Notes under the pieces: model-generated | Told to the model about the DNA's origin: nothing | The model's database searches: none | The model's input: only the letters and a program-made list of their open reading frames with translations | Assembly (NCBI GenBank): GCA_937922785.1 | Contig: CALAJQ010000032.1 | Location: forward strand, 1-37,876 | Direction: 5' to 3' | Length of the DNA: 37,876 nucleotides | DNA from: an uncultured Acidimicrobiales bacterium | Lineage (GTDB): Bacteria > Actinomycetota > Acidimicrobiia > Acidimicrobiales > SZUA-35 | Shown here: in pieces, positions 1,988 through 20,636 of the stretch | How the letters are laid out: each line of letters starts with the position of its first letter | Position numbering within the stretch: the first letter of the stretch is position 1 | Translations under genes and position numbers: made by a program

Positions 1988-3316
1988 TTAGCTATCGGAA
2001 GCCATCATTTGCTGGAACCAAAGCGCGCTGGCCTTGGGGACTCGGGCAAGCGTTTCGTAGTTGACCCGGACGATTCCGAACCGCTTCAGGTATCCCTCAG
2101 CCCACTCGAAGTTGTCCAGCAATGACCAGGCAAAATAGCCTCTAACCGGCACTCCGTTGTCTTGAGCCGCCTTCACCTGCGCTAAATGCGCCCGGTAGTA
2201 GGCAATGCGGTCTTGATCGTCAACAAAATCTGCATCGTCGGCGACGTCAGCAAGTGCGCAACCGTTCTCAGTTACATAGATCTCGGCAAAACCATGTTCT
2301 CTGTGGAGTCGTTCCAGCGTTTCCCTGATGCCTTCGGGGTAGATCTCCCATCCCATGTCAGTTACTGGCAGTCGAGGCTCTACGGGGCTCTCGTCGCCCT
2401 GGATCAGCTGGCGGGTGTAGTAGTTAACGCCAAGGAAGTCGATGGGAGCTGCGATGATCTCAAGATCGCCGTCAAGAACTTCGCTCTGATCCCATCCCAG
2501 AGCTGTGGCCGTGTCTTGGGGGTACCCCTTGCCTGCAATTGGTTCTACAAACCAGCGGTTGTCCCAGCCGTCTGTCACCAGCGCCTGAGCGACATCTTCA
2601 ACGGAGTCGGTGGCTGGTTTGACTGGGGTGAAGTTCAGAACAATTCCGGCCGCTGCATTCGGGGCCAGGTCACGAATCACACCCATAGCGAGGCCGTGGG
2701 CAACAAGCAGGTGATGGGCCGCCTTGAACCCTGCACTTGCCGAACTGATTCCGGGCGCGTGATACCCACTCTTGTAACCGTGGCTGGCCGATACCCACGG
2801 CTCATTCAGTGTGGCCCAGGATGCAACTCGATCTCCGAGGCGACCAACAACGGCCCGGGTGTATTCAACGAAAGCAAAGGCCGTGTCACGGTTTTGCCAG
2901 CCGCCAACGTCTTCCAGGACCTGAGGCAGGTCCCAGTGGTAAAGCGTGGCATAGGGCGCTATTCCAGCCGCTAGAAGTTCGTCCACCAAGCGGTCATAGA
3001 AGTCAAGCCCAATCTCGTTGACAGACCCTGTGCCACCAGGGATAACTCGTGGCCAGGCAATAGAGAATCGGTATGCGTCAAACCCCAGCTCTTTCAGCAT
3101 TGCTACGTCTTGAGGCATCCGCTCATAGTGACCGCACGCCACCGAACCATCGCTGCCGTCGGCAATGTTGCCAGAGATAGAACAGAACCGATCCCAGATG
3201 CTCTCGCCCCTGCCATCGGCGGTGTTGGAACCTTCAATTTGGAACGAAGCTGTAGCGGCGCCCCAAACGAAGTCCGCATCAAACACAGCGGAGCCAAACA
3301 AGTCTTGGTTGTTCAC
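1988..3316 (-). CDS. Glycoside hydrolase family 1 beta-glucosidase-like enzyme
   Basis: From the GTG at 3316 the product has 442 residues, the usual GH1 length. It shows the N-terminal FVWGAATASFQIEG signature (16-29), YRFSIAWPR (82-90), the acid/base motif TLNEPW (E172), NYYTR (299-302) and the nucleophile motif YVTENGC (E350). It should hydrolyse beta-linked glycosides by retaining catalysis. No signal peptide is seen, so it acts in the cytoplasm on imported sugars. The start is chosen because AAGGGA stands 7 nt before the GTG and the family match begins there; the open frame continues further upstream only as an overlap with the permease gene. It is the last gene of the transporter operon, 4 nt after the MalG-type permease, implying that the importer brings in its substrate. 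Confidence 0.92.
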   Translation of the reverse strand: MNNQDLFGSAVFDADFVWGAATASFQIEGSNTADGRGESIWDRFCSISGNIADGSDGSVACGHYERMPQDVAMLKELGFDAYRFSIAWPRVIPGGTGSVNEIGLDFYDRLVDELLAAGIAPYATLYHWDLPQVLEDVGGWQNRDTAFAFVEYTRAVVGRLGDRVASWATLNEPWVSASHGYKSGYHAPGISSASAGFKAAHHLLVAHGLAMGVIRDLAPNAAAGIVLNFTPVKPATDSVEDVAQALVTDGWDNRWFVEPIAGKGYPQDTATALGWDQSEVLDGDLEIIAAPIDFLGVNYYTRQLIQGDESPVEPRLPVTDMGWEIYPEGIRETLERLHREHGFAEIYVTENGCALADVADDADFVDDQDRIAYYRAHLAQVKAAQDNGVPVRGYFAWSLLDNFEWAEGYLKRFGIVRVNYETLARVPKASALWFQQMMASDS

Positions 3317-3320
3317 GTTG

Positions 3321-4232
3321 CTATCCCTTAACAGAACCGGCCAACAAGCCTCTAACGAAGAAGCGTTGTAGCAAGAAAAAGACCATGAGCGGTACTGCTG
3401 CTTGGACGAACGCACCAGCTGACAGCAAGTGTTCTCGCGCACCGAATTGGCCAGCCATGGACGCAATCTTGATGGTTGCCGGATGGTTTGCACCATTGGC
3501 ACCGATCATCGTTAACGCGATGAGATAGTCGTTCCAAGTCCAAAGGAACTGGAAGATGGCAAACGCCGCCAGAACTGGTATGGACAGTGGCACAACCAGC
3601 TTCCAGAAGATGGTGAAGTGATCGGCACCGTCGATTCTGGCCGATTCAAAAAGGTCCTTCGGAAGCTGACTGATGTAGTTGTGTAACAGGAAGATGGCAA
3701 ACGGCATCGCAAAGGCGGTGTGTGTTAACCAAACTGCGGTTGTTGTGCCGGCCAAGCTCATGTCAGGAATGATTGTGATGGTCTTCTCTAACCACGGAAT
3801 GGTGAAGTGTGCACCTCCGGAGTAGGTCTGGAGCAGTGGAATCAGTGCTACCTGGCTGGGGATCGCCAGCAACGAGACCGTGGCGATAAACAATCCCTTG
3901 CGGAATCTGAAGTCCATCCAAGCAAATCCGTATGCGGCAAAGGCCGCTATCGCGATGGGGATGATCGTCGCCGGGACGGCAATGGCGAAGGAGTTAACCA
4001 AGCCTTGCTTTAATCCGCCGGCACTGGTGGAGGCCAGCACGTCGGAGTAGTTGCCCAATCCGAGCGCAGCGTCGTCTTCTGGGAATGCCCACCAACCACG
4101 AGCTGTCTGAGCGTTCTTACTTCGGAACGAGTTCACAAACAGACTGAAGGTCGGGAGCGTCCAGATGACGACGAACACCCACAGCAAGCCGGTGGGGATT
4201 CCCTGCAAGAATTTGTAGAGACGAGCGGTCAT
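3321..4232 (-). CDS. ABC sugar transporter permease, MalG type (CUT1 family)
   Basis: A 303-residue inner-membrane permease with about six hydrophobic helices. The cytoplasmic EAA loop that docks to the ATPase is ESARIDGADHFTIFWK (196-211), followed by PLSIP. This is the standard MalG arrangement of the carbohydrate uptake transporter 1 family. The start ATG at 4232 overlaps the stop of the upstream MalF-type gene by ATGA, which indicates translational coupling and a heterodimeric permease. It works with the lipoprotein binding protein encoded at 7264-8673. No ATP-binding subunit is encoded in this operon. Actinobacteria often use a shared MsiK-type ATPase for such importers, and that is the probable solution here (inference). 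Confidence 0.93.
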   Translation of the reverse strand: MTARLYKFLQGIPTGLLWVFVVIWTLPTFSLFVNSFRSKNAQTARGWWAFPEDDAALGLGNYSDVLASTSAGGLKQGLVNSFAIAVPATIIPIAIAAFAAYGFAWMDFRFRKGLFIATVSLLAIPSQVALIPLLQTYSGGAHFTIPWLEKTITIIPDMSLAGTTTAVWLTHTAFAMPFAIFLLHNYISQLPKDLFESARIDGADHFTIFWKLVVPLSIPVLAAFAIFQFLWTWNDYLIALTMIGANGANHPATIKIASMAGQFGAREHLLSAGAFVQAAVPLMVFFLLQRFFVRGLLAGSVKG

Positions 4233-7159
4233 GCTGCCAACCCCTTTTGCATGGTCCGGATGTTGTAGTACATGACGGGCACCACAGATAGGAACAGCAC
4301 AATTGCTAACGCCGAGCCCAAGCCGATGTCACGCTCAGTAAAGGCCCGTTGCCACATTTCGTTAGCAACCACCTGAGTGTCGAAGTTGCCGTTTGTCATG
4401 ACCTTTACGATGTCGAACACTTTCATGACCAACACGATGAGGGTGGTGACGATCACTCCGACAGTAGGAGCGATAGTTGGAAGGATGATCTTCCAGAAGA
4501 TCTGACTTTCGGTGGCCCCGTCAACTCGTGACGCCTCTATGAACTCTGACGGGACGGCCTTGATGGCCGCGGAGAAGATGACCATCGCAAAGCCGGTCTG
4601 AATCCAGATGAGCACGATCATCAGCCACAGGTTGTTGAAAGGCTGAGACTGAGTCAGGAACAAGATGATTGGCTCGAGCCGCTTTCCGTCGCCTGTTTCA
4701 CCTGCGATACCGCCAATGCCATCTCCGATTGTGAACCGGTACATGACAAACACCAGCAGAATGCCGATGAAAATCGAACTGCCCATGACACCTTTGGCCT
4801 TGGCCACATAGGCGTGGACAAATAGCGTCAGCGCTCCCAGGAGGAGGACGGTCAGGATTGCGATGGACACCTTGAAGCCGGTCCCGGTGGTCGTGCTGTA
4901 CTGGCCGAGCTCCACCCAAAGCGCATTAAAGACGCCGGTCTGAGTCTTGGTGACGGGGCGGGCAATATAAAGGAAACGCCAAATAATGCCCGCGCCGATA
5001 AACGAGATCGCTAGCGGCATGAAGATGAATGACTTCGCCACGTTCTCATGCTTTGCCCGGTCAGCAAGCACTGCAACCGCAAGGCCCAAACCAGTTGCGC
5101 CCAGCGTCACGGTAAACACCCACCAGGCGTTGTTGATCACCGTGCCTCGCAGCGTCGAGAAGATTGCAAAGGCAAAGAAGAACACTCCAAGGGAGAACGA
5201 CGTGATCATTCCACCGTCCATATCGATGCCGATCTTTGGCACCGAGACCCCGCTAGAGATCAATTTGGGGATTGCTAGAAGACCCGCCCCAACCACAGTC
5301 AATAAAATGATGGCCAGCCAATTTCCACCTTGAGCAAGGTCAAGGTTGGCGAGGCTTTCTTCACCAGCCAGCGGTGCGGTCTGTCGGCCGAGCACATACT
5401 CAAGAAGCGCAGCCAGAAGGGCCAGTACACCGACTGTCTGGAGAATTGTCCCGCCCCAGGTGATGCTGTTGCCCGTCTTGCGGCTTCGGAAGAACCCGCC
5501 AATAAGGGCAATTGCAAACAAGACCGCAGCGATCTGGAACAGTCGACTACCGAATAGATCCAGCCTTCCTGTGTAATCGAAACTGGTCGAGTCGGTGAAT
5601 ACCGTCCGGTAGTTGCCTAGTCCGATGTACTCGGTGGTCTGGCGCTCAAACAACGAAAGATAGATGGTCCGAACTAGCGGAATCACTAAACCAAGGGAGA
5701 TGAAGCTCAGGGCTGGCCCCAAGAACACAACGGACCTGGACTTCTGCTCGAACCGCTCCTTGCCAACCACATCTAGGTATGGCTTGGCTCCGTAGCGCAA
5801 TCCAGCGAGCGCTCCAGCAACCCCTGTGGAGAGGAACGTTTCTATTTCGGGGCCGCCACCAAGGTTAGAGAAGCCGAAGGTTCCAATTAGCCAACCAACC
5901 AACGCACCGGTAGCGCCACCGCTAACAACGTTGCGCCCTCGCAACTGAGCAAGTGCGACGCCGGCCGCTCCAAGGATTAGGGGCGAAGCAATTAGCGGAA
6001 CTGTTTCAAGCCGTGGTTGGTAGATCGTCTTGAGCAGGCCACCGACAACTAGGCCAATGACGAGGCCGCCGCCGACTCCGATAATTGCTTTGGTTTGCGC
6101 ATCGGACGCCTTGCTTAGGGCATATCCAACGAGTCCAAAGATGATGGCTCCGAGGGTGGCCATCCAGATCACTCGTATTGAAGTGTCCACTGGAATGCGA
6201 TCTGCGAACATAACGCCCCAGACCGCACCAAGCACTCCGAAAACAGCGATACCGATTCCTCGATTGTTTCCCCCACCTTCGCGGATGTTGCGGGCCATGA
6301 AGTCATAGATCCAACCCAGCACAAGGCCTATGAGTGTTGAAAAGATCAGCAAAGTCCAACGGCCACGGTTGACCAACTCGTGGAGCTCTGTGGCCACGGT
6401 TTCACGCGGGCCAACGATCTGAATCAGTCGGTTGCCGTCAAGTACCCCGAACACGACAAATCCGAGAGCCGCCCCGGTAAGTGCTGAGAAAGCCTCCCAG
6501 CCTTTCGATGAGTGATTGAGCAGCAAGTTCGTTGTGACAAACAACAGACAGCTGGCTCCAACAGCCAACACAACGGCCCAAATGGTGCTGGCAATCGATC
6601 CCATCTCGGCGCTGCCAAGGATCCGACCCATTCGGTCAAACGCTTGAAGCCAATCGACGAGGCCAACAAACGTGGCCACCGCTCCGACCAGCGGAACAAT
6701 CCGTCGCCCGTCTTCAGGCAGTGCCGGGGAAGCCATAACTGCAAGGCCCACACATCCCAACAAGATCAAGACCATAAAGCCGACAAGCTTCGTGGGTCCG
6801 CCCGCAATGAACCCAGCCACCACCAGAGCAAGACTTGCTGCGATTCCGAACGCAAACGTCATGGCGTTTGAGGTGAGCAGTTTTCGGGCCCCGAAGTACA
6901 CCGCAACTCCGGCAGCTGCTCCTGCGATGACTGCTACCAGAAAGGTAAGTGGCTCTCTAGTAGAGGACCCAAAGGTCTCTGGATCAATCAGAAACCAAAC
7001 AACAAACAGGCCCGCAAACATAGACAGAAGTGGGGGCGCGGCGAGAGACAGCGAAAAGCGGTCGTAAAGTTTCTCTAGCCCTATTTTGATAAGAACGGCA
7101 ACCGCAGCTGCCGAGGCAAATAGCAGCAGCCAAGTAAGACCCGTCTCTATGACGTCCAC
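4229..7159 (-). CDS. Greatly enlarged MalF-type ABC sugar permease (976 aa)
   Basis: This is the second permease of the sugar importer. The C-terminal part is clearly MalF-like, with the EAA loop EASRVDGATESQIFWK starting at residue 875 and the family's FL.PA..F..L...PL.RTIYLSLF and IGLGNYRTVF segments around 480-520. MalF-type proteins usually have 290-510 residues; this one has about 470 extra residues at the N-terminus, almost all hydrophobic helices separated by short loops. Further helices are inserted between the first MalF helix and the rest of the core. The frame is open throughout, so this is not a sequencing artefact of two genes. The GTG start at 7159 has AGGGAG 6 nt upstream. What the additional membrane region does is unknown; it may be a fused membrane module or a duplicated helical bundle. 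Confidence 0.9.
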   Translation of the reverse strand: MDVIETGLTWLLLFASAAAVAVLIKIGLEKLYDRFSLSLAAPPLLSMFAGLFVVWFLIDPETFGSSTREPLTFLVAVIAGAAAGVAVYFGARKLLTSNAMTFAFGIAASLALVVAGFIAGGPTKLVGFMVLILLGCVGLAVMASPALPEDGRRIVPLVGAVATFVGLVDWLQAFDRMGRILGSAEMGSIASTIWAVVLAVGASCLLFVTTNLLLNHSSKGWEAFSALTGAALGFVVFGVLDGNRLIQIVGPRETVATELHELVNRGRWTLLIFSTLIGLVLGWIYDFMARNIREGGGNNRGIGIAVFGVLGAVWGVMFADRIPVDTSIRVIWMATLGAIIFGLVGYALSKASDAQTKAIIGVGGGLVIGLVVGGLLKTIYQPRLETVPLIASPLILGAAGVALAQLRGRNVVSGGATGALVGWLIGTFGFSNLGGGPEIETFLSTGVAGALAGLRYGAKPYLDVVGKERFEQKSRSVVFLGPALSFISLGLVIPLVRTIYLSLFERQTTEYIGLGNYRTVFTDSTSFDYTGRLDLFGSRLFQIAAVLFAIALIGGFFRSRKTGNSITWGGTILQTVGVLALLAALLEYVLGRQTAPLAGEESLANLDLAQGGNWLAIILLTVVGAGLLAIPKLISSGVSVPKIGIDMDGGMITSFSLGVFFFAFAIFSTLRGTVINNAWWVFTVTLGATGLGLAVAVLADRAKHENVAKSFIFMPLAISFIGAGIIWRFLYIARPVTKTQTGVFNALWVELGQYSTTTGTGFKVSIAILTVLLLGALTLFVHAYVAKAKGVMGSSIFIGILLVFVMYRFTIGDGIGGIAGETGDGKRLEPIILFLTQSQPFNNLWLMIVLIWIQTGFAMVIFSAAIKAVPSEFIEASRVDGATESQIFWKIILPTIAPTVGVIVTTLIVLVMKVFDIVKVMTNGNFDTQVVANEMWQRAFTERDIGLGSALAIVLFLSVVPVMYYNIRTMQKGLAA

Positions 7160-7171
7160 GTGCTCTCCCTT

Positions 7172-7185
7172 GTGGTCCGGACCAC
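7172..7185. promoter_or_regulatory. 14-bp perfect palindrome before the MalF-type gene
   Basis: GTGGTCCGGACCAC is a perfect palindrome ending a few bases before the ribosome site of the large permease gene. It could be an operator within the operon, a binding site for an internal promoter, or part of the mRNA fold that sets translation of the permease. No regulator gene is visible in the window to pair with it. Confidence 0.35.
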
Positions 7186-7199
7186 GATCTTAGATACAC

Positions 7200-7235
7200 A
7201 AAGGGCGTCGACGCAATACTGCGCCGACGCCCTTT
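7200..7235 (-). terminator. Intercistronic hairpin after the solute-binding protein gene
   Basis: Two 15-nt arms beginning AAAGGGCGTCG and ending CGACGCCCTTT, with one mismatch and a 6-nt loop, form a strong GC-rich stem between the binding-protein stop and the MalF-type start. On the minus strand it is followed by TTTGTGT, an imperfect U tract, so a partial terminator or an RNA-stabilising stem is likely. This position is typical in importer operons where the binding protein must be made in excess over the permeases. Read on the plus strand, the U tract is better, but no plus-strand gene ends here. Confidence 0.6.
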
Positions 7236-7263
7236 TTCAAACGATTAGTTTGAAGTTGTTAGC

Positions 7264-8673
7264 CTATGAAGGCCAGCTTGCCTCAATGTTGTCAGCAGCT
7301 TCCTTGGCAGTGATGTCACCGTTTACTGCAGCGGTTCCTTCAGTCCAGAAAGTGCCGGCACCAACGTCGGCTGGCATTAGGTCAGAAGCGTCGAAGCGGA
7401 AGGTCGTGGCGTTAGCCAAGATGTCCAGGAACGACAGTTCTAGTGGGGTGTACAGACCAAGGTCTACGCCCTGAGCAGCAGATAGGAAGCCTGAAAGGCC
7501 GCCACCCTTGATTTCGGCCTGAGCGGCCTGACGAGCGTTGGCGTATTCAACCGAGCCCATGTACTCAACAACTGCCCAAACCTCTGGACGATCGTCGTGA
7601 GCTACTGCCAATGTGCCGGCACCAAGAACTGGTCGGCCATCGTCAGCTGGGAAGTAGAACACATCAACTGCGTCTTCAGAACCATCAGCGAATGCAGTTC
7701 CATCAGGGATACGTGAGGCAAAGAATGACGCCTGACGGTGCATGAAGCACTCGCCGTCAACTAGGGCCTGGCCGTTGTCACCGAATGGAGTAGTAGCAAT
7801 TGAGCCGCCTGGGGCAAATACTGCCTCTGGTGACCACAAATCGATAACTGCCTGCATCTGGTCAACGATCTGAGGATCGTTGAATGGAATCTCGTGGTTT
7901 ACCCACTGGTCATAGACGTCGCCGCCCAAGTTACGAAGAACCATTTCTTCGACCCAGTCGGTGTAGGTCCAGCCGGTAGCTGGGCCTGACTCGATACCAA
8001 CACATAGTGCCTTGTCGCCGTTAGCAACCATTTCGGCTACCAGTTCGGTGAACTCGGTGAAAGTTCCAGGTACTTCATAACCTGCAGCTGCGAACTTGGC
8101 TGGCTGGTACCAAACAAGTGACTTGACGTCAGCCTTAACAGGCATGCCGTACTGGTCACCGTCAACGTTACCGAAGGCCAAGAATGCTTCGCCCCATGCG
8201 GTCGCGCCAACAACGTCGTCAGGTACCTGAGCTAGGAAACCCTCACGTGCGAAGTCAGCAACCTTGCCAGGCTGTGGGTAGATGCCGATGTCTGGAGCGT
8301 TGCCGCCAGCAATCTGTGCGTTGATCTGGTCAGAGAAATCGGTTGCGCCGGTGAAGGTCACGTTGATTCCAGTTTCAGCTGCGAAGTCTGCAAATACTGC
8401 AGAGATTGCGTCAGCTTCCTGATCGGTTTCTGAACCAAAGACAGTTACTGAGGTGCCGGAGAGATCTTCCATCTCATCTTCCATGGCTTCAGTTGTCTCG
8501 GCTGCTTCGCCGTCGTCTTCATCTTCCATTGCCTCTGTAGTTTCAGAGGTGTCGTCTTCCATTGCTTCAGTAGTTGGCGTCTCGTCGCTTCCAGTTTCGT
8601 CACCGGAGCATGATGCTGCTACCAGTGCCAAAGCCAGAAGGGCCATCAGCCACTTCAAACTTGCTTTCTTCAT
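7264..8673 (-). CDS. Extracellular sugar-binding lipoprotein of the ABC importer (AglE-like)
   Basis: The 469-residue product starts at the ATG at 8673, preceded by AAGGGA. A lipoprotein signal (MKKASLKWLMALLALALVAA) ends at lipobox cysteine C22. Residues 24-70 form a very acidic linker with the heptad TTEAMED repeated at 34-40, 45-51 and 60-66. The remainder is a family-1 type periplasmic-binding fold with segments such as TDWVEEMVLRNLGGDVYDQW that resemble alpha-glucoside binding proteins (AglE group). It should be anchored on the outside of the membrane and deliver a sugar or glycoside to the two permeases. Codon choice here looks different from the neighbours (more GCT, CCA and GTT), which fits high expression. 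The ligand is not determined; the divergent desulfonation genes suggest a sulfosugar or its glycoside. Confidence 0.9.
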   Translation of the reverse strand: MKKASLKWLMALLALALVAASCSGDETGSDETPTTEAMEDDTSETTEAMEDEDDGEAAETTEAMEDEMEDLSGTSVTVFGSETDQEADAISAVFADFAAETGINVTFTGATDFSDQINAQIAGGNAPDIGIYPQPGKVADFAREGFLAQVPDDVVGATAWGEAFLAFGNVDGDQYGMPVKADVKSLVWYQPAKFAAAGYEVPGTFTEFTELVAEMVANGDKALCVGIESGPATGWTYTDWVEEMVLRNLGGDVYDQWVNHEIPFNDPQIVDQMQAVIDLWSPEAVFAPGGSIATTPFGDNGQALVDGECFMHRQASFFASRIPDGTAFADGSEDAVDVFYFPADDGRPVLGAGTLAVAHDDRPEVWAVVEYMGSVEYANARQAAQAEIKGGGLSGFLSAAQGVDLGLYTPLELSFLDILANATTFRFDASDLMPADVGAGTFWTEGTAAVNGDITAKEAADNIEASWPS

Positions 8674-8922
8674 AATTCCCTTTCCCAAGGATTCTCTCCC
8701 CACCTACATGTGGGCAACCAAAGAAGGCTAGCCAAACCGTTTTGTTTTTGTGTGGCATGGGCCAAAAATCGGCTCAGCCAGCGGGGTTAATTGTTTAAGC
8801 TCGCTGTGTTTTCGGCGATTTTGCGAAGTTATGACAACGGGTGTGGTTTAGGCGGAAGGCGGCCACACTGGTTAGCTAACAAAACCAGTGCACCTCTGGT
8901 GAGGCACTTATTCTGAGGCTTA
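8674..8922. promoter_or_regulatory. Divergent control region between importer operon and reductase/monooxygenase operon
   Basis: This 249-bp gap contains the outward promoters of both operons, so the two sets of genes can be controlled together. An inverted repeat CACTGGTT / AACCAGTG (8866-8873 and 8883-8890, 9-nt spacer) contains the palindrome GTTAGCTAAC at its centre-left and lies 33 nt before the reductase start. A second small symmetric site, AAAC-C-GTTT at 8735-8743, looks like half of a LacI-family operator. No -10/-35 pair could be assigned with confidence. Confidence 0.4.
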
Positions 8923-9825
8923 ATGACTGATTCAATAGTTGATGGGAGTCCCCGCAAAGTCGGGGCTCATGAGGTTGGACCCCTCGCTTGTGGTCTTTGG
9001 CGATTTGTCGATACCGACGTGGCCACATGCACCGGCGTTATCGAAGCGGCTCTCGATGCAGGGATGAACCTGATCGACAACGCCGATGTCTACGGATTCG
9101 ATTGGGGCGGCACCGGGTTCGGTCTGGCCGAAGAAAATCTGGGGCGGGTGCTTGCGGCTTCCCCAGGACTTAGGGACCGAATGGTCATTGCCACCAAGGG
9201 CGGAATCTTGCCTCCACTCCCCTATGACTCAAGTTCGGCCTACCTTCGCACAGCTGTTGAAGGCTCGCTGACTCGCATGGGAATTGACCACATTGACGTC
9301 TATCAGATCCACCGACCCGACATGTTTAGCCACCCCGCCGCCGTTGCAGAAGCACTTGACGCAATGGTGACCGCAGGCAAGGTCGGCGCTGTGGGAGTTT
9401 CCAACTACACAGTTGCCCAGACGGCGGCGCTTAACTCGTTCCTAGAAAACAAACTCGTCTCGATTCAGCCTGAGTTCTCTGCCACACATTTGGATCCAAT
9501 GCGTGACGGCAGCTTTGACCTAGCCATGCAGCACGGGATGACTCCGCTGGCCTGGAGTCCCCTTGGCGGTTCCAAACTGGCAACTGGCGAAGGAGTATCG
9601 GCCGAACTGCTTGCGGTTATGGATCGACTTGCCGAACGTGAAGGCGTCACACGCTCCGACGTAGCAATCGCATTTGTGTTGGCTCACCCATCTCGACCGG
9701 TTGCAATCTTGGGCACACAAAACCTGGAGCGGATTGCCGCAGCGCCCGCAGCGCTCAACGTCTCGCTTAATCGCGCCGATGTCTATGAAATTGTTGCCGC
9801 TTCTGAAGGAGTTCCTCTGCCATGA
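8923..9825 (+). CDS. Aldo/keto reductase (YdhF/SmoB-like; candidate 6-oxo-sugar reductase)
   Basis: A 300-residue NAD(P)H-dependent aldo/keto reductase with the catalytic tetrad in its usual places: D52 and Y57 in NLIDNADVYGF, K92 in ATKGG, and H130 in QIHRPD. Later motifs GVSNYT, PLAWSPLGG and LGTQNLERI bind the nucleotide cofactor. By general resemblance it belongs to the YdhF-type group, which also contains SmoB, the reductase that turns 6-oxoglucose into glucose in oxidative sulfoquinovose breakdown. It overlaps the following SsuD-type monooxygenase by ATGA; reductase followed by monooxygenase is the smoB-smoC order. GAGG upstream of the ATG serves as ribosome site. The fold assignment is secure; the substrate is inferred from context. 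Confidence 0.9.
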   Translation: MTDSIVDGSPRKVGAHEVGPLACGLWRFVDTDVATCTGVIEAALDAGMNLIDNADVYGFDWGGTGFGLAEENLGRVLAASPGLRDRMVIATKGGILPPLPYDSSSAYLRTAVEGSLTRMGIDHIDVYQIHRPDMFSHPAAVAEALDAMVTAGKVGAVGVSNYTVAQTAALNSFLENKLVSIQPEFSATHLDPMRDGSFDLAMQHGMTPLAWSPLGGSKLATGEGVSAELLAVMDRLAEREGVTRSDVAIAFVLAHPSRPVAILGTQNLERIAAAPAALNVSLNRADVYEIVAASEGVPLP

Positions 9826-10907
9826 CAGATCATCTACCTGAGATCTCTTGGTTCTCGGCATTGTGTGATGACGATTATGAGTACCTCGGTGTTCCAAACC
9901 CGGACCTTCAGTCTTCTTGGGAACACTGCAGAGACATCGCCCAAGCCGCAGACCGCAACGGCTTCGACAACATCTTGCTGCCGTCGGGCTACACGCTAGG
10001 TATCGATGCACCGGCCTTCGCAGCCGCAGTGGCCAGCCACACCGAAAACATAAACTTGTTGTTGGCGGTGCGGATGGGCGAACTTTGGGTGCCCCAGCTT
10101 GCCCGTCAGCTGGCGACCATCGATCAGATGTGTGGCGGTCGGCTGACCATCAACATCATTTCCTCCGATCTGCCTGGCCAAGCCATGGAGTCAGAGCCTC
10201 GCTACCAGAGGACGATTGAATACATGCAGGTTCTGCGCAAGCTGCTTGACGGTGAGTCTGTTGACTATGACGGCGAGTTCGTCAAGCTGAAGCTGGACCC
10301 ACCACGCCTCCGCACAGTCAGCGGCAAGTGCCCACCTTTCTACTTCGGAGGATTCTCGCCCGCAGCCAAAGAAACCGCCGCTGCAGAATCTGACGTATTC
10401 CTAACCTGGCCCGACACTGTTGCCTCAGTTGGCGAGACCGTTGCCGACATGACCGAGCGAGCAGCCAAGCACGGCCGCACCTTGGCCTATGGCCTTCGTT
10501 CACACGTGATTGTGCGCGAAACCGAAGACGAAGCGATGGCATCTGCAGACCGCTTGATCTCAAAACTCGACGCAGAGACCGGGGCGGCCATCAAGGGCCG
10601 CTCGCTAGATACCCAATCTGCCGGCGTCAACCGACAGGTCGCTTTGCGAGAAGCAGCAGGCGATGACGGATTCGCCGAACCCAACTTGTGGACTGGCATT
10701 GGCAAGGCTCGAAGCGGCGCTGGTGCTGCAATCGTGGGAGACCCAGACCAGGTACTGGCGAAGCTCAAGGCCTACCAAGAGGTGGGAGTCAGTGCTTTCA
10801 TCTTGTCGGGATACACCCATATCGACGAGTGTGACCTGTTCGCAAAATACGTTCTGCCAAACATCGAACACGCCCCTTACAAGCCAACCTATGAGGCAGC
10901 ACAGTGA
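9822..10907 (+). CDS. SsuD-type FMNH2-dependent monooxygenase (candidate sulfosugar desulfonase)
   Basis: The 361-residue product is a luciferase-like (LLM) flavin monooxygenase most similar to alkanesulfonate monooxygenase SsuD. The SsuD active-site residues known from the literature fall at the same numbers: R226 and H228 in LRSHVIVRE, R297 in ARSGAGAAIVGD and Y331 in SGYTH. The SsuD cysteine near position 54 is not conserved. Such enzymes use reduced FMN and oxygen to cleave a C-S bond, releasing sulfite and an aldehyde. With a preceding aldo/keto reductase to reduce that aldehyde, the likely substrate is a sulfonated sugar such as sulfoquinovose (SmoC role). A flavin reductase is needed as partner, and none is in the window. 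The gene overlaps both neighbours by 4 nt. Confidence 0.88.
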   Translation: MTDHLPEISWFSALCDDDYEYLGVPNPDLQSSWEHCRDIAQAADRNGFDNILLPSGYTLGIDAPAFAAAVASHTENINLLLAVRMGELWVPQLARQLATIDQMCGGRLTINIISSDLPGQAMESEPRYQRTIEYMQVLRKLLDGESVDYDGEFVKLKLDPPRLRTVSGKCPPFYFGGFSPAAKETAAAESDVFLTWPDTVASVGETVADMTERAAKHGRTLAYGLRSHVIVRETEDEAMASADRLISKLDAETGAAIKGRSLDTQSAGVNRQVALREAAGDDGFAEPNLWTGIGKARSGAGAAIVGDPDQVLAKLKAYQEVGVSAFILSGYTHIDECDLFAKYVLPNIEHAPYKPTYEAAQ

Positions 10908-11986
10908 GCCAGATCTCAGCGTCAGAAGAAGTTCGCTACGGGATCATCGGATCCGGAATGATGGGCATAGAGCACATCGAGAACATCAAGGCAATTGATG
11001 GTGCCCGAGTGACTGCCATCGCTGACCCGCACGTGCCCTCTCAGGAATCGGCAGTCGAAGCTGTGGGTGGTCCCATCGAAGTTTTTGGCGACTACAACGA
11101 CATGGTGGCGTCGGGAGCCTGCGATGTGTTGGTGGTAGTTACCCCGAACTTCCATCACATTGAAGTTCTGCGAGACACTTTGGGCGCCAACATGCCCATG
11201 CTGCTTGAGAAGCCGCTGTGCACCACAATGGAGGACTGCAAGGAAGTTCTTCAACTTGCTAAGGGCCGCACCGCTCCTATCTGGATGGGTCTTGAGTATC
11301 GATACATGCCGCCTGTAGCCCGGCTGCTTGATGTTGTTCGATCCGGCGTGCTTGGCAACACAAAGATGATTGCGATACGAGAACACCGTTTCCCATTTCT
11401 TGAAAAGGTCGGCGACTGGAATCGATTCAGCGCCAACACCGGCGGCACGTTGGTTGAGAAAACCTGCCACTTCTTTGACCTGATGAACTTGATCGCCGAC
11501 GCAAAGCCAGTTGAGGTAATTGCCTCAGGTGGTCAGGACGTAAACCACTTGGATGAGACGTACGACGGTAAACAAAGTGACATCTTGGATAACGCTTACG
11601 TGATAGTGCAATACGACAACGGCGTTCGGGCCATGTTGGACTTGTGCATGTTCGCCGAGGCAACCTTCAACCAGGAAGAGATTTCAGTGGTTGGCGACTT
11701 AGGCAAAGCTGAAGCTCTAATTCCCGAAGACGTTGTCCGAGTAGGTATCCGAGGTGAGCACAGCTTTGGCATGGTTCGGCGTGAAGTTGTAGCTAACAAT
11801 GCTCCTTATGTTGGTCATCATCATGGCTCCTCCTATATCGAGCACACGCTGTTCCTCGACTGCATCCGTAACGGCACTACTCCCGAGGTTGGCCTTGAAG
11901 AAGGCATGGCTTCGGTTGCGGTCGGCGTTGCGGCACACATGAGCATCGACGAGGGCCGCACAGTCAAGATGAGCGAGATTCTGTAG
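10904..11986 (+). CDS. Gfo/Idh/MocA-family NAD-dependent oxidoreductase (candidate GH188-like sulfoquinovosidase)
   Basis: A 360-residue protein with an N-terminal Rossmann fold (GIIGSGMMGIEH, 13-24), the family motif EKPL (102-105) and a C-terminal segment GGTLVEKTCHFFDLMNL typical of the Gfo/Idh/MocA superfamily. The GTG start overlaps the monooxygenase stop (GTGA). Members may be sugar dehydrogenases, but the same fold includes NAD-dependent glycosidases, among them the GH188 sulfoquinovosidases found in sulfoquinovose gene clusters that lack a classical GH31 enzyme. The absence of a GH31 gene and the coupling to the SmoB/SmoC-like pair make that role attractive here. Fold is sure; glycosidase versus simple dehydrogenase cannot be decided by eye. 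Confidence 0.88.
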   Translation: MSQISASEEVRYGIIGSGMMGIEHIENIKAIDGARVTAIADPHVPSQESAVEAVGGPIEVFGDYNDMVASGACDVLVVVTPNFHHIEVLRDTLGANMPMLLEKPLCTTMEDCKEVLQLAKGRTAPIWMGLEYRYMPPVARLLDVVRSGVLGNTKMIAIREHRFPFLEKVGDWNRFSANTGGTLVEKTCHFFDLMNLIADAKPVEVIASGGQDVNHLDETYDGKQSDILDNAYVIVQYDNGVRAMLDLCMFAEATFNQEEISVVGDLGKAEALIPEDVVRVGIRGEHSFGMVRREVVANNAPYVGHHHGSSYIEHTLFLDCIRNGTTPEVGLEEGMASVAVGVAAHMSIDEGRTVKMSEIL

Positions 11987-11999
11987 CTACCATCTGTTG

Positions 12000-17094: not shown

Positions 17095-17179
17095 GTTGTC
17101 CACAGAAACTGGAGTTATGCCAGGGGCAATCCTGCGGATTACTGAGACCTGACCCCCTAGGAGTTGACCCCCTAGGAGA
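17095..17179 (-). repeat. Degenerate family B repeat downstream of DoeB (locus B1)
   Basis: Read on the minus strand, the DoeB stop TAG is followed by GGGGGTCAACTCC, then a duplicate TAGGGGGTCAGGTCTCAG, an unrelated middle part and finally the inner end TTCTGTGGACAAC. The outer end is thus tandemly duplicated as two 15-bp units (17150-17164 and 17165-17179). On the plus strand the inner end reads TTGTCCACA (17096-17104), which is the actinobacterial form of the DnaA box. Confidence 0.6.
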
Positions 17180-18173
17180 TGGCCCCTTGCATGGCTATTG
17201 CGTCTCCTAGGCGGACTATGCCTGGGAAGTGGCGCATGGCGAGGATGCCGTCCATGGTTGCGTGATAGTCGCGGGGTTGGGTGCCCAGATGAACGGGGTC
17301 GTGCACTCTGGCGATTACCTGACCTTTGGTGATCGGGTCACCAAGCGCAACCACCCACTCGATTAGCCCGTCGGACTCGCTTGTTATGTAGGCGCCTTCC
17401 AGCGGGATGTCCAGGAACTGGGTGGGTGCATCTTCAACTTCACCGGCAAGAACACCCGCTTGACGCAACACGTTCTTGACTCCCCTGAATGCAATCTCGG
17501 CCCAGTCGGGTCGGGTCGTGCCGGTGCCGCCTAGTTCAGTCGTGAGGAACGGAGTGCCCGATTCTTCGACGTGGGTATCCCACATGCCGATCGTGTCAAT
17601 CTCCACCAGCTTACAAGTAAACGGCGCCTTGAAAGCCACTGCATATTGCCAACCGTTGGCCTCCGCGTCTTTGTCATCCAAAACATGGGTGCAGGCCATC
17701 GGCACAAACTCAAGTGTCTTGCCACCGTCGTGCATGTCCATAACAAGATCAGCCATCGGCAGCATGTAGCGGGCCATGTAGTCGGCAATCTTCTCGGTGA
17801 TCGTTCCGTTAGGGCGCCCTGGGAACGAACGGTTCAGGTTGCCCTTGTCGATTGGCGAGGTTCGAGTACCGGCGGCAAACGCCGGCTGGTTCATCGTCGG
17901 CACCACGATGATTCGGCCCGTCACATCAGCAATGTTCACCGAGCTGATGAAGCGGAGCATCGCCAGGGGACCTTGGTATTCGTCGCCGTGGTTTCCGCCG
18001 GTGAGCAGCACGGTTGGCCCTTCACCGTTTTTGATTACCGCAACTGGAACCATCACTGCGCCATAAGCCGAACCGTCGTGGCTGTGGGGCACTTTCAGGT
18101 GGCCGTGGTGGGCTCCGTCTTGGTCAAATGGGATCGTCGGTGAGACGGGGGAAGCCATCATTGTTTCTGCCAT
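17172..18173 (-). CDS. doeB: N-alpha-acetyl-L-2,4-diaminobutyrate deacetylase DoeB-like (aspartoacylase family)
   Basis: A 333-residue zinc amidohydrolase of the succinylglutamate desuccinylase/aspartoacylase family. Zinc ligands are H62 and E65 in TGGNHGDEYQG and H148 in MDMHDGG; NLNRSFPG (112-119) lines the substrate pocket. With the adjacent ectoine hydrolase it should carry out the second step of ectoine degradation, removing acetate from N-alpha-acetyl-L-2,4-diaminobutyrate to give diaminobutyrate in the cytoplasm. The ATG at 18173 has AGAGG upstream. It is the last gene of the operon, 17 nt after DoeA. The stop codon abuts repeat B1. The assignment rests on family resemblance plus the DoeA neighbour. 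Confidence 0.85.
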   Translation of the reverse strand: MAETMMASPVSPTIPFDQDGAHHGHLKVPHSHDGSAYGAVMVPVAVIKNGEGPTVLLTGGNHGDEYQGPLAMLRFISSVNIADVTGRIIVVPTMNQPAFAAGTRTSPIDKGNLNRSFPGRPNGTITEKIADYMARYMLPMADLVMDMHDGGKTLEFVPMACTHVLDDKDAEANGWQYAVAFKAPFTCKLVEIDTIGMWDTHVEESGTPFLTTELGGTGTTRPDWAEIAFRGVKNVLRQAGVLAGEVEDAPTQFLDIPLEGAYITSESDGLIEWVVALGDPITKGQVIARVHDPVHLGTQPRDYHATMDGILAMRHFPGIVRLGDAIAMQGAIS

Positions 18174-18190
18174 GTTCAGACCTCTGTCTC

Positions 18191-19393
18191 TTAACCCTTA
18201 ACGAACAGTTTGCGGGGAACGTTGGCTAGCGCCTCGCATCCGGTTTCGGTGATCAATAACGACTCTGTTATCTCCATGCCCCAGTCGGTCTGCCAGAGCG
18301 CCGGCATGAAGTGGATGGTCATTCCCGGTTTGAACTCGGTCGTGTCGCCGGGACGAATGCTGATGTTCCTCTCGCCCCAGTCCGGCGGATAGCTAATACC
18401 GATTCCGTATCCGGCACGGCTCTCTTTGTCATAGCCGTGGGATCGCAACTCAGTAATGAACGCGGCGTGCATGTCTTCGGCGGTGTGGCCCGGTTTCGCC
18501 GCCGACATCCCTGCGTTAATGGAAGCGACGAGGGCCTCTTCGGCCTTGAACCACTCGACGTCAGGCTCGCCGAGGAAGACCGTTCGGCAAAGCGGCACGT
18601 GATAGTGCTTGTGAACTCCAGCGATTTCGAAGAAGGTCCCAAACCCACGCTCGAACGGCTTGTCATCCCAAGTGAGATGCGCCGCGGTGGCGTCGATGCC
18701 GGTTGGGGCAAGGGGAACGATGCCCGGATAGTCGCCACCGTGCTCGGGCGTGCCGACGATCGACGCATGGTAAATCTCAGCGATCAAATCGTTCTTGCGC
18801 ATCCCCACTTCCATCCGTTCGAGAATTCGAGCGTGCATGTTCTCAACGATCTGACCGGCGATGCGCATGTAGGCAATCTCTTGGGCCGACTTCACTGAAC
18901 GTTGCCAGTTCACCAACGCAGTGGCATCGCCGAAAGTGGCTTCGGGCAGATTCTCAACCAAGGATTGATGAGCTCGGGGCGAGTAGTAATAGCCGTCCAT
19001 TTCGACGCCGATACGAAGTGCTCCCCAGCCTCGCTCCTGGATTTTCTGGGCGAGGTATTCCGACGAGTGCCGCTCGGTCGACATCACATAGTGGTCGGGG
19101 TATCCGATGATGTCATCGGTCGGCATATAGGTGGTCCGAAGCGCTCCGATTGAATCCATGTAGCGACCAAACCAGATCGGGCCGCCGTCGGGTCCAACCA
19201 AAACACACTGAGGCGTGTAGAAAGACCAGCCGTCATAACCGGTCAGCCAAGCCATGTTTGACGGGTCGGTAACTGACAAAACGTCAATTCCCTGCACCGC
19301 CATGGCCGCGCGTGTTTTCGCTAGCCGGTCGGCGAACTCGTCGGTTGTGAAGTGAAGCGTTGGTGCGGTGCGATCCCAGCTGGTGCGACCCAT
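18191..19393 (-). CDS. doeA: Ectoine hydrolase DoeA-like (M24 peptidase family)
   Basis: The 400-residue product is a creatinase/prolidase-fold protein of family M24 and resembles DoeA/EutD throughout, with the signatures RLAKTRAAM, DPSNMAWLTGYDGWSFY, CVLVGPDGGPIWFGR and GIGISYPPDWGE. DoeA opens the ring of ectoine (and, in some species, hydroxyectoine) to N-acetyl-diaminobutyrate. The ATG at 19393 overlaps the stop of the upstream PLP enzyme (TGATG), and DoeB follows, so the two hydrolases are co-translated. Their presence suggests the organism uses this marine osmolyte as a carbon and nitrogen source. No ectoine transporter, DoeC/DoeD or EnuR-type regulator is found here. Confidence 0.88.
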   Translation of the reverse strand: MGRTSWDRTAPTLHFTTDEFADRLAKTRAAMAVQGIDVLSVTDPSNMAWLTGYDGWSFYTPQCVLVGPDGGPIWFGRYMDSIGALRTTYMPTDDIIGYPDHYVMSTERHSSEYLAQKIQERGWGALRIGVEMDGYYYSPRAHQSLVENLPEATFGDATALVNWQRSVKSAQEIAYMRIAGQIVENMHARILERMEVGMRKNDLIAEIYHASIVGTPEHGGDYPGIVPLAPTGIDATAAHLTWDDKPFERGFGTFFEIAGVHKHYHVPLCRTVFLGEPDVEWFKAEEALVASINAGMSAAKPGHTAEDMHAAFITELRSHGYDKESRAGYGIGISYPPDWGERNISIRPGDTTEFKPGMTIHFMPALWQTDWGMEITESLLITETGCEALANVPRKLFVKG

Positions 19394-20571
19394 CAGACTC
19401 CTTCTAATGCCTGGTCCAGATCCGAAAGTAGATCGTCGATGTCTTCAATGCCTGCGCTGTAACGAATTAGCCCCTCGGGAATTCCTAGCGCTTCACGTTC
19501 TGCGGCCGAGCACTCGACGTGGCTGGTGGTTGCCGGCGGCCCGACGATTGTCTCTACCGCGCCAAGGTTTGCCGCCATATGGGCGAAGCGAAGCTTCGGC
19601 AACAAGTTGCGAACCGTGTCGAGGTTGTTGCCCAGGCTGAAGCTGAGCATTCCACCGAATCCACGCATCTGCTTGGCTGCAATTCCGTGCCCATGATGGG
19701 TCTTGAGGCCTGGATAGTTGACCGTGGCCACCTTCGGATGACCGCTTAGATACTCGGCCACCATTTGGGCGTTCTGGTTCTGGCGTTCGATTCGCAGACT
19801 TAACGTCTTCATGCCGCGCAGCAGTAGGTATGCGGCTTCGGGATGCAAGGTGGCGCCGTTGATTTCCCGGTAGCCGTAGATTTGGTCGATCAAGTCTTGC
19901 CGGCCAACAGCCACTCCCCCAAGCGCATCGGCGTGGCCGCCCAAGAACTTTGTGGCCGAGTGCACAACTAGGTCGGCGCCGAAGGAGATCGGCGACTGGT
20001 TGATTGGTGTGGCGAAAGTGTTGTCCACCATTACGATCGCGCCAGCCGCATGGCCGGCGGCGGTTAGTCGTTCAAGATCGAGAATCTTGAGCGTCGGGTT
20101 GGTCGGAGTCTCCAAGTAGAGAAGGTCGCAACCTTCGGCCACGGCCGCCTCAATGGCTTGGGTGTTGTTGGTGTCAACCAGAACACACTCATATCCCATA
20201 CGGGGAAGGAACGTCGTGAACAGAAGGCTGGTGCCTCCGTAAGTGTCTTTTACACTGACTATCTTGTGGCCCGGATCAAGAATTGCATGCAAGGCGTTGC
20301 TGATGATGGCCATGCCGGTCGAGGCTGATGTTGCTGCCTCTCCCCCTTCCAGCAACCGAACCTTCTCTTCGAACACCGACACCGTCGGGTTGGTGTTACG
20401 CCCGTAGATGTGGCCGTCAGCTTTGCCAAGGGCAACGTCAAGCCACGAGTCAAGATCGGGATAACCAAAGGAGACGCTGTGAACCACGGGCACCTGGGTA
20501 GATCCGTCCTGGAACGAACGCTCTTCGCCGCCCCAAATGTTGATTGTCGACCGGCCCGGCTCAGATGTCAT
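19393..20571 (-). CDS. Cystathionine gamma-synthase/gamma-lyase-like PLP enzyme in the ectoine operon
   Basis: From the ATG at 20571 the product has 392 residues and is a full Cys/Met-metabolism PLP enzyme. Visible are IYGRNTNPT (55-63), SASTGMAI (82-89), the PLP-stacking YGGT region, ETPTNPTLKI, the PLP aspartate in MVDNTFATP and the Schiff-base lysine K208 in VHSATKFLGGHADA. The family performs beta/gamma elimination or replacement at sulfur or other gamma substituents. It is the first gene of the operon with DoeA and DoeB, so it may act on diaminobutyrate derived from ectoine, for instance by gamma elimination, instead of the usual transaminase DoeD; this is inference. A longer reading from a TTG at 20598 lies in repeat B2 and is rejected. 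Confidence 0.85.
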   Translation of the reverse strand: MTSEPGRSTINIWGGEERSFQDGSTQVPVVHSVSFGYPDLDSWLDVALGKADGHIYGRNTNPTVSVFEEKVRLLEGGEAATSASTGMAIISNALHAILDPGHKIVSVKDTYGGTSLLFTTFLPRMGYECVLVDTNNTQAIEAAVAEGCDLLYLETPTNPTLKILDLERLTAAGHAAGAIVMVDNTFATPINQSPISFGADLVVHSATKFLGGHADALGGVAVGRQDLIDQIYGYREINGATLHPEAAYLLLRGMKTLSLRIERQNQNAQMVAEYLSGHPKVATVNYPGLKTHHGHGIAAKQMRGFGGMLSFSLGNNLDTVRNLLPKLRFAHMAANLGAVETIVGPPATTSHVECSAAEREALGIPEGLIRYSAGIEDIDDLLSDLDQALEGV

Positions 20572-20589
20572 GGACGGATCGTAGAACGA

Positions 20590-20636
20590 GGGGGTCAAGT
20601 CTCAAAACTGGCTAGGTCGGGTCATCTGTGGATAAC
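20590..20636 (+). repeat. Family B repeat, locus B2 (left end of inverted pair)
   Basis: A 47-bp copy: outer end GGGGGTCAAGTCTCAAAA, middle GGCTAGGT, inner end CTGTGGATAAC. It contains a perfect DnaA-box sequence (TGTGGATAA, 20627-20635, complement of TTATCCACA). It lies just upstream of the PLP-enzyme start and faces locus B3 in inverted orientation. Confidence 0.85.

Follow-up and report, generated by a model that had tools for sequence, protein, structure and literature searches.

Which compound is served by a locus in which a luciferase-like monooxygenase (LLM), an aldo/keto reductase (AKR) and a Gfo/Idh/MocA-family protein are encoded beside a sugar importer? The question is raised by contig CALAJQ010000032.1 of assembly GCA_937922785.1, from an uncultured Acidimicrobiales bacterium, whose 37,876 nucleotides are referred to here as the window. 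An earlier note on this DNA had proposed a locus for the oxidative utilisation of sulfoquinovose (SQ), a sulfosugar of plants and algae, a proposal that the results for the LLM and Gfo/Idh/MocA proteins support. Judged by sequence comparison, the locus is very likely one of sulfolytic SQ utilisation of the SQ monooxygenase (sulfo-SMO) kind, furnished with an enzyme of glycoside hydrolase family GH188; this estimate covers the enzymes and not the substrate of the importer. Its features are as follows.

8923..9825, plus strand: AKR, SmoB-like, proposed to convert 6-oxoglucose to glucose (PF00248; best solved relative 7bby/7bbz)
9822..10907, plus strand: flavin-dependent monooxygenase of the SmoC/SquD type, proposed to convert SQ to 6-oxoglucose and sulfite (scores, identity, SmoC clade)
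10904..11986, plus strand: predicted GH188 NAD+-dependent sulfoquinovosidase of the SqgA type (scores to 8qc2/8qc3/8zn9, kept residues)
7264..8703, minus strand: solute-binding protein (SBP) of a sugar ATP-binding cassette (ABC) importer (PF01547; AlphaFold2 model)
4229..7159, minus strand: sugar ABC importer permease 1, 976 amino acids, with a very long N-terminal membrane extension (PF00528 at residues 797-962 only)
3321..4232, minus strand: sugar ABC importer permease 2 (PF00528; tree lineage of 43 rows)
1988..3316, minus strand: GH1 beta-glucosidase, in the same direction as the importer (TIGR03356; probable start GTG 3316)
8704..8922, no strand: divergent intergenic region, presumed to hold promoters (one weak inverted repeat, 8836-8873)

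Three overlapping enzyme genes

The three plus-strand open reading frames (ORFs) each share 4 nt with the next and match, in order, the Pfam families Aldo_ket_red, Bac_luciferase and GFO_IDH_MocA, while the minus-strand importer operon (SBP, permease, permease, GH1) diverges from them; ORFs and Pfam thus agree with the arrangement given in the earlier note.

The Gfo/Idh/MocA protein had been suggested to be a GH188 enzyme, and it is GH188-like by score, the only measure on which this grouping was made. It reaches 347, 338 and 315 bits against the GH188-type structures 8qc2, 8qc3 and 8zn9 (the last named only 'Oxidoreductase, putative'), with 46-48% identity, and the next protein scores 84. The catalytic and SQ-contacting residues reported for ArSqgA are K107, Y136, R166, L170, K172, E189, H193 and H321, together with a glutamate printed as residue 163 (PMC10755693). 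All eight align with identical residues in the window (K103, Y132, R162, L166, K168, E185, H189 and H306). Position 163 as printed is valine in the 8qc3 chain and arginine in the window; the glutamate is the next residue, kept in the window as E160. These residues are invariant in 134 of 134 relatives except L166, which is retained in 125. The loop packing near this sulfonate-binding leucine is shorter than in solved SqgA, spanning 30 residues between the same landmarks instead of the 41 of 8qc3, and a length of 28-31 residues is found in 121 of 135 rows, the query included. Truncation of this loop has been described for Tyr variants (PMC11465081); compared with those, the loop of the window is also short, but the leucine is kept. 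The wide score gap and the conserved catalytic and sulfonate-binding residues indicate that the gene at 10904-11986 very probably encodes a GH188 sulfoquinovosidase.

Similar comparisons can be drawn for the LLM protein (9822-10907). Among solved structures it scores highest with 7olf (365 bits) and 7oh2 (354), both of which we take to be SmoC proteins although their database names are generic or otherwise; 7jv3, presumably MsuD, follows at 249 bits and SsuD at 223. Identity is 50-51% to SmoC, 38% to MsuD and 37% to SsuD, and at the 119 alignment columns that separate the two SmoC proteins from MsuD and SsuD, the LLM protein carries the SmoC-like residue at 49, the SsuD/MsuD-like residue at 20 and neither at 50. 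The tree, with 45 rows, groups 36 proteins of the order (that of the window included) with the two SmoC proteins at a support of 99/92, which bears out the SmoC-type assignment of the earlier note, for which a phylogeny had been proposed as a check. The group excludes SsuD, MsuD, a paralogue from the same genome and four divergent proteins whose genomes lack GH188. The rows were picked from a larger set, with the long-branch row L186 and the own-genome rows L003 and L006 left out, and the program warned of long branches joining at the outgroup and at the four divergent rows. The residues R226, H228, R297 and Y331, which the earlier note had recorded, are indeed present in the alignment; they do not discriminate SmoC from SsuD, and all 119 relatives keep the first three while 118 keep Y331, the remaining sequence having a gap. 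By score, identity, diagnostic columns and tree, the protein is very probably an SQ monooxygenase of the SmoC/SquD type.

For the AKR (8923-9825), the nearest solved relative is 7bby/7bbz, which bears a generic or other database name and which we take to be SmoB; it scores 175 bits, the next relative 121, and identity is 41% (111/268) as against 34% to YdhF. The catalytic tetrad is nearly invariant in 91 relatives, with Y57, K92 and H130 kept in all of them and D55 in 90. In six genomes of the family to which the window belongs, the AKR gene lies away from the LLM gene, and in each an orthologue is located elsewhere. A SmoB-like match at E <= 1e-30 is missing in seven of 20 genomes searched, four of family f22 and three of family f23, the latter three carrying a divergent LLM. 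We infer that the AKR is a SmoB-like 6-oxoglucose reductase, the least firmly assigned of the three enzymes. If so, the SmoB and SmoC genes of the window, adjacent and overlapping by 4 nt, lie well inside the distance of 10 ORFs by which sulfo-SMO clusters are recognised in PMC13372026.

Neither a flavin reductase nor a GH31 gene was seen by Pfam among the locus genes, as the earlier note had remarked. The genome holds three PF01613 flavin reductases, all on other contigs, and no match to PF01055 (GH31) was found in it; a linked SmoA, a common and not obligatory component, is thus missing. Such an arrangement is widespread in the order: 73 of 74 LLM-bearing genomes searched hold PF01613 (the four genomes with a divergent LLM being left out), and among the matches listed for these 74 none is closer than 10 kb to the LLM gene. 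Among 158 GH188-anchored loci searched with two query sequences, the window apart, a flavin reductase is nearby in only three (L058, L072 and L076, labelled Microthrixaceae or Actinomycetota). Because linked copies are so few, supply of the reductase from elsewhere appears to be usual in the order.

The GH1 gene is likewise peripheral. Its product scores 594 bits against the TIGR03356 beta-glucosidase model (cut-off 478.5), so that the glycosidase named in the earlier note stands; the extent of 1988-3502 listed for its ORF does not, because GH1 homology sets in at residue 72 of the long ORF and not before, which places the probable start at GTG 3316, just past the permease stop codon at 3321-3323. 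The C-terminal NFEW motif would presumably favour a substrate whose C6 hydroxyl is unmodified over one with a sulfonate. GH1 is present in 3 of 79 SmoC-anchored loci (loci of at most 19 kb, some ended by contig ends), and on this count it was ruled out as a core part of the pathway; it would be an ordinary beta-glucosidase for separate glucoside use. The earlier note had read the presence of GH1 and the absence of flavin reductase and GH31 genes as a hint that the substrate might be another sulfosugar or a glycoside with a beta linkage. That hint finds no support, since GH1 is rare in SmoC loci and an unlinked reductase is the usual condition.

Together, these assignments outline a route. The ABC importer would take up SQ or SQ-glycerol, which is the least certain step. 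The GH188 enzyme, as homology and residues suggest, would hydrolyse SQ glycosides inside the cell through transient oxidation at C3 by bound NAD+. The LLM monooxygenase, supplied with reduced flavin mononucleotide (FMNH2) by an unlinked reductase, would cut the C-S bond to yield sulfite and 6-oxoglucose, as its clade membership implies, and the AKR, with less assurance than the other two enzymes, would reduce 6-oxoglucose to glucose.

The pathway genes across the order

Genes of the SMO and GH188 pathway are common in this order. In a sample of 298 genomes, with each gene counted at E <= 1e-60, the LLM gene occurs in 78, GH188 in 86 and both in 74. GH188 is thus found in 74 of 78 LLM-bearing genomes as against 12 of the 220 others (Fisher 1e-51, uncorrected for kinship), and the two genes lie at most 5 kb apart in 61 of the 74. 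The four genomes with the LLM gene only (G005, G023, G111 and G194) are the sources of the four divergent LLM rows outside the SmoC clade. Seven loci of the 12 genomes with GH188 only were examined (L244-L250), and one of them, L244, has MalK, LacI, GH1 and GH13 genes alongside.

Gene presence in loci was scored by tblastn, as gene calling misses genes in G+C-rich loci; in this scoring the long GH1 ORF, which overlaps it, masks the window's own permease 2. Pfam on neighbour clusters left several ORFs without a family, which are probably antisense. The commonest order in SmoC-anchored loci has GH188 divergent from SmoB-SmoC (39 of 79), and the gene order of the window was met once among these 79, in the window itself, and once among the named GH188-anchored loci (L045). 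Among the best 80 of 259 GH188 loci, 47 are labelled Acidimicrob- and another 12 Microthrix, Ilumatobacter or Aquihabitans. Most of the others bear only an unspecific Actinobacteria label; Nitriliruptoraceae and a plain 'bacterium' account for two each and a Deltaproteobacterium for one.

Some observations on the outlying members may be added. The SmoC-like LLM proteins encoded at loci L187-L191 (from G005, G111, G023 and G194) show 46-50% identity and are accompanied by neither GH188 nor a linked SmoB, the neighbours in L190 being a sulfatase, a major facilitator superfamily transporter and a tyrosine phosphatase; these divergent proteins perhaps act on a different sulfonate substrate. In L245 and L250, from genomes without the LLM gene, GH188 sits beside housekeeping genes (undecaprenyl diphosphate synthase and RecO; an SRP54-type GTPase).

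The importer and its candidate substrate

The importer is the less expected part of the locus. The AlphaFold2 model of its SBP has a mean predicted local distance difference test score (pLDDT) of 93.6 and matches the folds of AcbH (Z 43.4), a glucose/galactose binder (Z 40.8) and SmoF (Z 33.9), the last figure, set against that for AcbH, denoting a shared fold class only. By phmmer, SmoF and the SBP of the window gave no match at E <= 0.001, and SmoF matches the SBP profile only at E 3e-4 and 23 bits, compared with 77 bits for AcbH; on these phmmer and profile scores, membership of the SBP in the SmoF sequence family was set aside as unsupported. One residue stands out: K68 of the modelled mature stretch (window residue 147) is basic in all 41 SBPs of the two pathway lineages and in 5 of 12 others, there as lysine. 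It should be treated as a lead, not as a site.

Permease 1 contains 26 hydrophobic segments in its 976 residues, the permease domain match being limited to residues 797-962. A similarly long permease 1 is seen in L211 and L045, and most of the 40 ORFs called for the cluster measure 519-858 amino acids. The genome encodes two MalK-type ATPases that share 60-61% identity with one of a relative; they are candidates to power the importer, whose ATPase would thus be supplied from elsewhere.

A match to permease 2 at E <= 1e-70 exists in 75 of the 298 genomes, the LLM gene being present in 53 of these and absent from 22, and one such copy per genome, from these matches only, was placed in trees. The lineage of the window comprises 43 rows (100/99) and a second lineage eight (100/99), and all 51 come from LLM-bearing genomes; outside both fall all 22 rows of LLM-free genomes and two rows of LLM-bearing ones. 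The first lineage is therefore present in 43 of 78 LLM-bearing genomes and the second in eight more, and neither was seen in the 220 others. The two join at 86/89 in the larger tree and not in the smaller one, and they are counted apart for this reason. A cut-off of 375 bits had been set after the scores were seen, and the trees are used in its place; the permease copy of G018, a genome without the LLM gene, exceeds 375 bits and falls outside the lineage in the trees. Within genera, the first lineage tracks the LLM gene in g41, where G034, G118 and G200 have both and G175 neither, and in g5 (G139 versus G291); g42 (G150, G201 and G224 versus G244) gives the same contrast for the second lineage. 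G243 (g41) and G254 (g2) have the LLM gene and no permease match at E <= 1e-70. Confinement of the two lineages to LLM-bearing genomes, together with the within-genus contrasts, suggests that the importer serves the pathway. We therefore lean, with reserve, toward an importer lineage, made up of an AcbH-like SBP and two permeases (the first extended at its N terminus by a long membrane region), which in this order would serve SQ or SQ-glycerol specifically and have arisen independently of SmoEFGH.

Several neighbouring observations belong here. A gene of the GH13 alpha-amylase family occurs in 16 of 79 SmoC-anchored loci (L135, L137 and L138 among them); where a permease-2 gene is present, the figure is 13 of 31. 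MalK is found in 26 of 79 and LacI in 18 of 79, and this recurrence raises the possibility of a connection between the SQ genes and the use of alpha-glucosides. The LLM protein of the window lies outside the clade of its own-family members L159, L161, L163, L164 and L172, nearer to rows of other families, whereas the permease groups with the own-family member L211; these split affinities in the trees suggest gene transfer within the order. A search for an operator in the intergenic region 8704-8922 gave nothing convincing beyond the weak inverted repeat at 8836-8873, and no sigma-70-like match was found there. The 5'-nucleotidase gene at 11997 was rejected as an operon member, having no match of at least 200 bits among those listed for other loci, many of them short. 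Farther along, at 17172-20598, the window holds genes of ectoine degradation, DoeB (TIGR02994, 466 bits, cut-off 403) and DoeA (TIGR02993, 613.4 bits, cut-off 613), which adjoin a pyridoxal phosphate enzyme of the cystathionine gamma-synthase family (NF006097, 635 bits, cut-off 600).

Alternative readings and known systems

Certain observations weigh against the assignments made above. The 50 diagnostic columns at which the LLM protein has neither residue, and the 20 with the SsuD/MsuD residue, bear on its exact specificity. The AKR tree has only three outside rows and its rooting is not decisive, so that it does not settle membership in SmoB, and the four f22 genomes with LLM and GH188 genes have no SmoB-like match at E <= 1e-30. 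For the importer, the nearest SBP folds are those of plain binders of galactose, glucose and xylo-oligosaccharide, and of the seven basic positions conserved in pathway-lineage SBPs, six are basic in 8 or more of the 12 SBPs taken from non-pathway genomes as well. It could be, given the moderate identity of the LLM protein to SmoC, those unassigned columns and a leucine-side GH188 loop 11 residues shorter than in 8qc3 (a length usual in relatives), that the enzymes act in the same manner on another sulfosugar or sulfonated glycoside. We consider this unlikely, as every sulfonate- and hydroxyl-contacting residue reported for SqgA with SQ is kept and the combination of GH188, SmoC and SmoB is the one known for SQ. 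That the LLM protein is instead an alkanesulfonate monooxygenase of the SsuD/MsuD kind, scavenging sulfur beside unrelated sugar genes, seems to us highly improbable: it belongs to the same superfamily, keeps the SsuD active-site residues and has TIGR03565 (alkanesulfonate monooxygenase) as its top NCBIfam model, but it scores 284 bits against a cut-off of 518, and the near-fixed partnership with GH188 also speaks against such a role. The scavenger assignment was discarded on the SmoC clade and these scores.

The importer admits a more substantial alternative, in which it forms with GH1 a separate glucoside uptake operon that merely adjoins the SQ genes, SQ entering by another transporter. Where the LLM gene is missing from the genome, related importers are accompanied by GH1 in 8 of 22 loci and by GH13 in 7 of 22, and the frequency of GH13 in SmoC loci that hold a permease-2 gene is in keeping with this, as are the plain-sugar folds nearest to the SBP, the scarcity of anything sulfonate-specific among its residues and the 27 of 78 LLM-bearing genomes that have neither importer lineage. 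Against it stand the absence of both lineages from the 220 other genomes and the agreement of the contrasts in g41, g5 and g42. In addition, 17 of 42 permease copies above 375 bits in LLM-bearing genomes are separated from the LLM gene by over 15 kb or sit on a different contig, and thus mere vicinity does not explain the link between the two. A separate glucoside operon is accordingly a real possibility that we nonetheless find somewhat doubtful.

Under the preferred reading of the enzymes, a sulfo-SMO pathway with GH188, the locus can be compared with systems already described. Like the sulfo-SMO (sulfo-ASMO) pathway of Agrobacterium and Novosphingobium (SmoA/B/C, SquD/F), it has an LLM and a SmoB-like AKR in one operon and is predicted to share aerobic sulfolysis to glucose and sulfite; it differs in having GH188 instead of GH31, and in a binding protein that lies outside the sequence family of SmoF in SmoEFGH. 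For N. aromaticivorans, a flavin reductase outside the cluster has already been presumed (PMC9594981). In a 2026 review, the sulfo-SMO pathway is placed mainly in alpha- and beta-Proteobacteria (PMC12890257). Roseobacter-clade clusters have GH188 beside the SMO genes and no GH31 (Kaur et al. 2023, PMC10755693), the same combination as in the window, which is of a different phylum. In June 2026, sulfo-SMO clusters, identified in aquatic genomes by SmoB and SmoC co-location, were reported as frequent in Actinomycetota (PMC13372026). These probably include loci like the present one, although the parts of that paper considered here name no class or order and describe no importer, and 'acidimicrob' is absent from its main text. 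Literature searched for SQ with Acidimicrobi-, Ilumatobacter or Actinomycetota monooxygenase, within the main texts of subscription-free papers, yielded nothing on SQ genes of the order; a single soil paper, on an unrelated matter, mentions SQ together with Acidimicrobi-, and none does so with Ilumatobacter. Because GH188-SMO clusters and Actinomycetota SMO clusters are both in print, the locus joins a known kind and its importer is possibly new.

An estimated 10 billion tons of SQ are made and degraded each year (PMC10755693). The occurrence of a SmoC-type LLM with GH188 in 74 of 298 genomes adds likely SQ degraders from this order, and GH188, SmoC and the permease lineage together provide a marker set for metagenomes. 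Roughly a quarter of the sampled genomes of the order carry the pathway genes. If the reading of the importer is true, a second sulfosugar ABC importer would have been recruited independently in this order, and its SBP would provide a protein, not of the SmoF sequence family, whose binding of sulfosugars can be tested.

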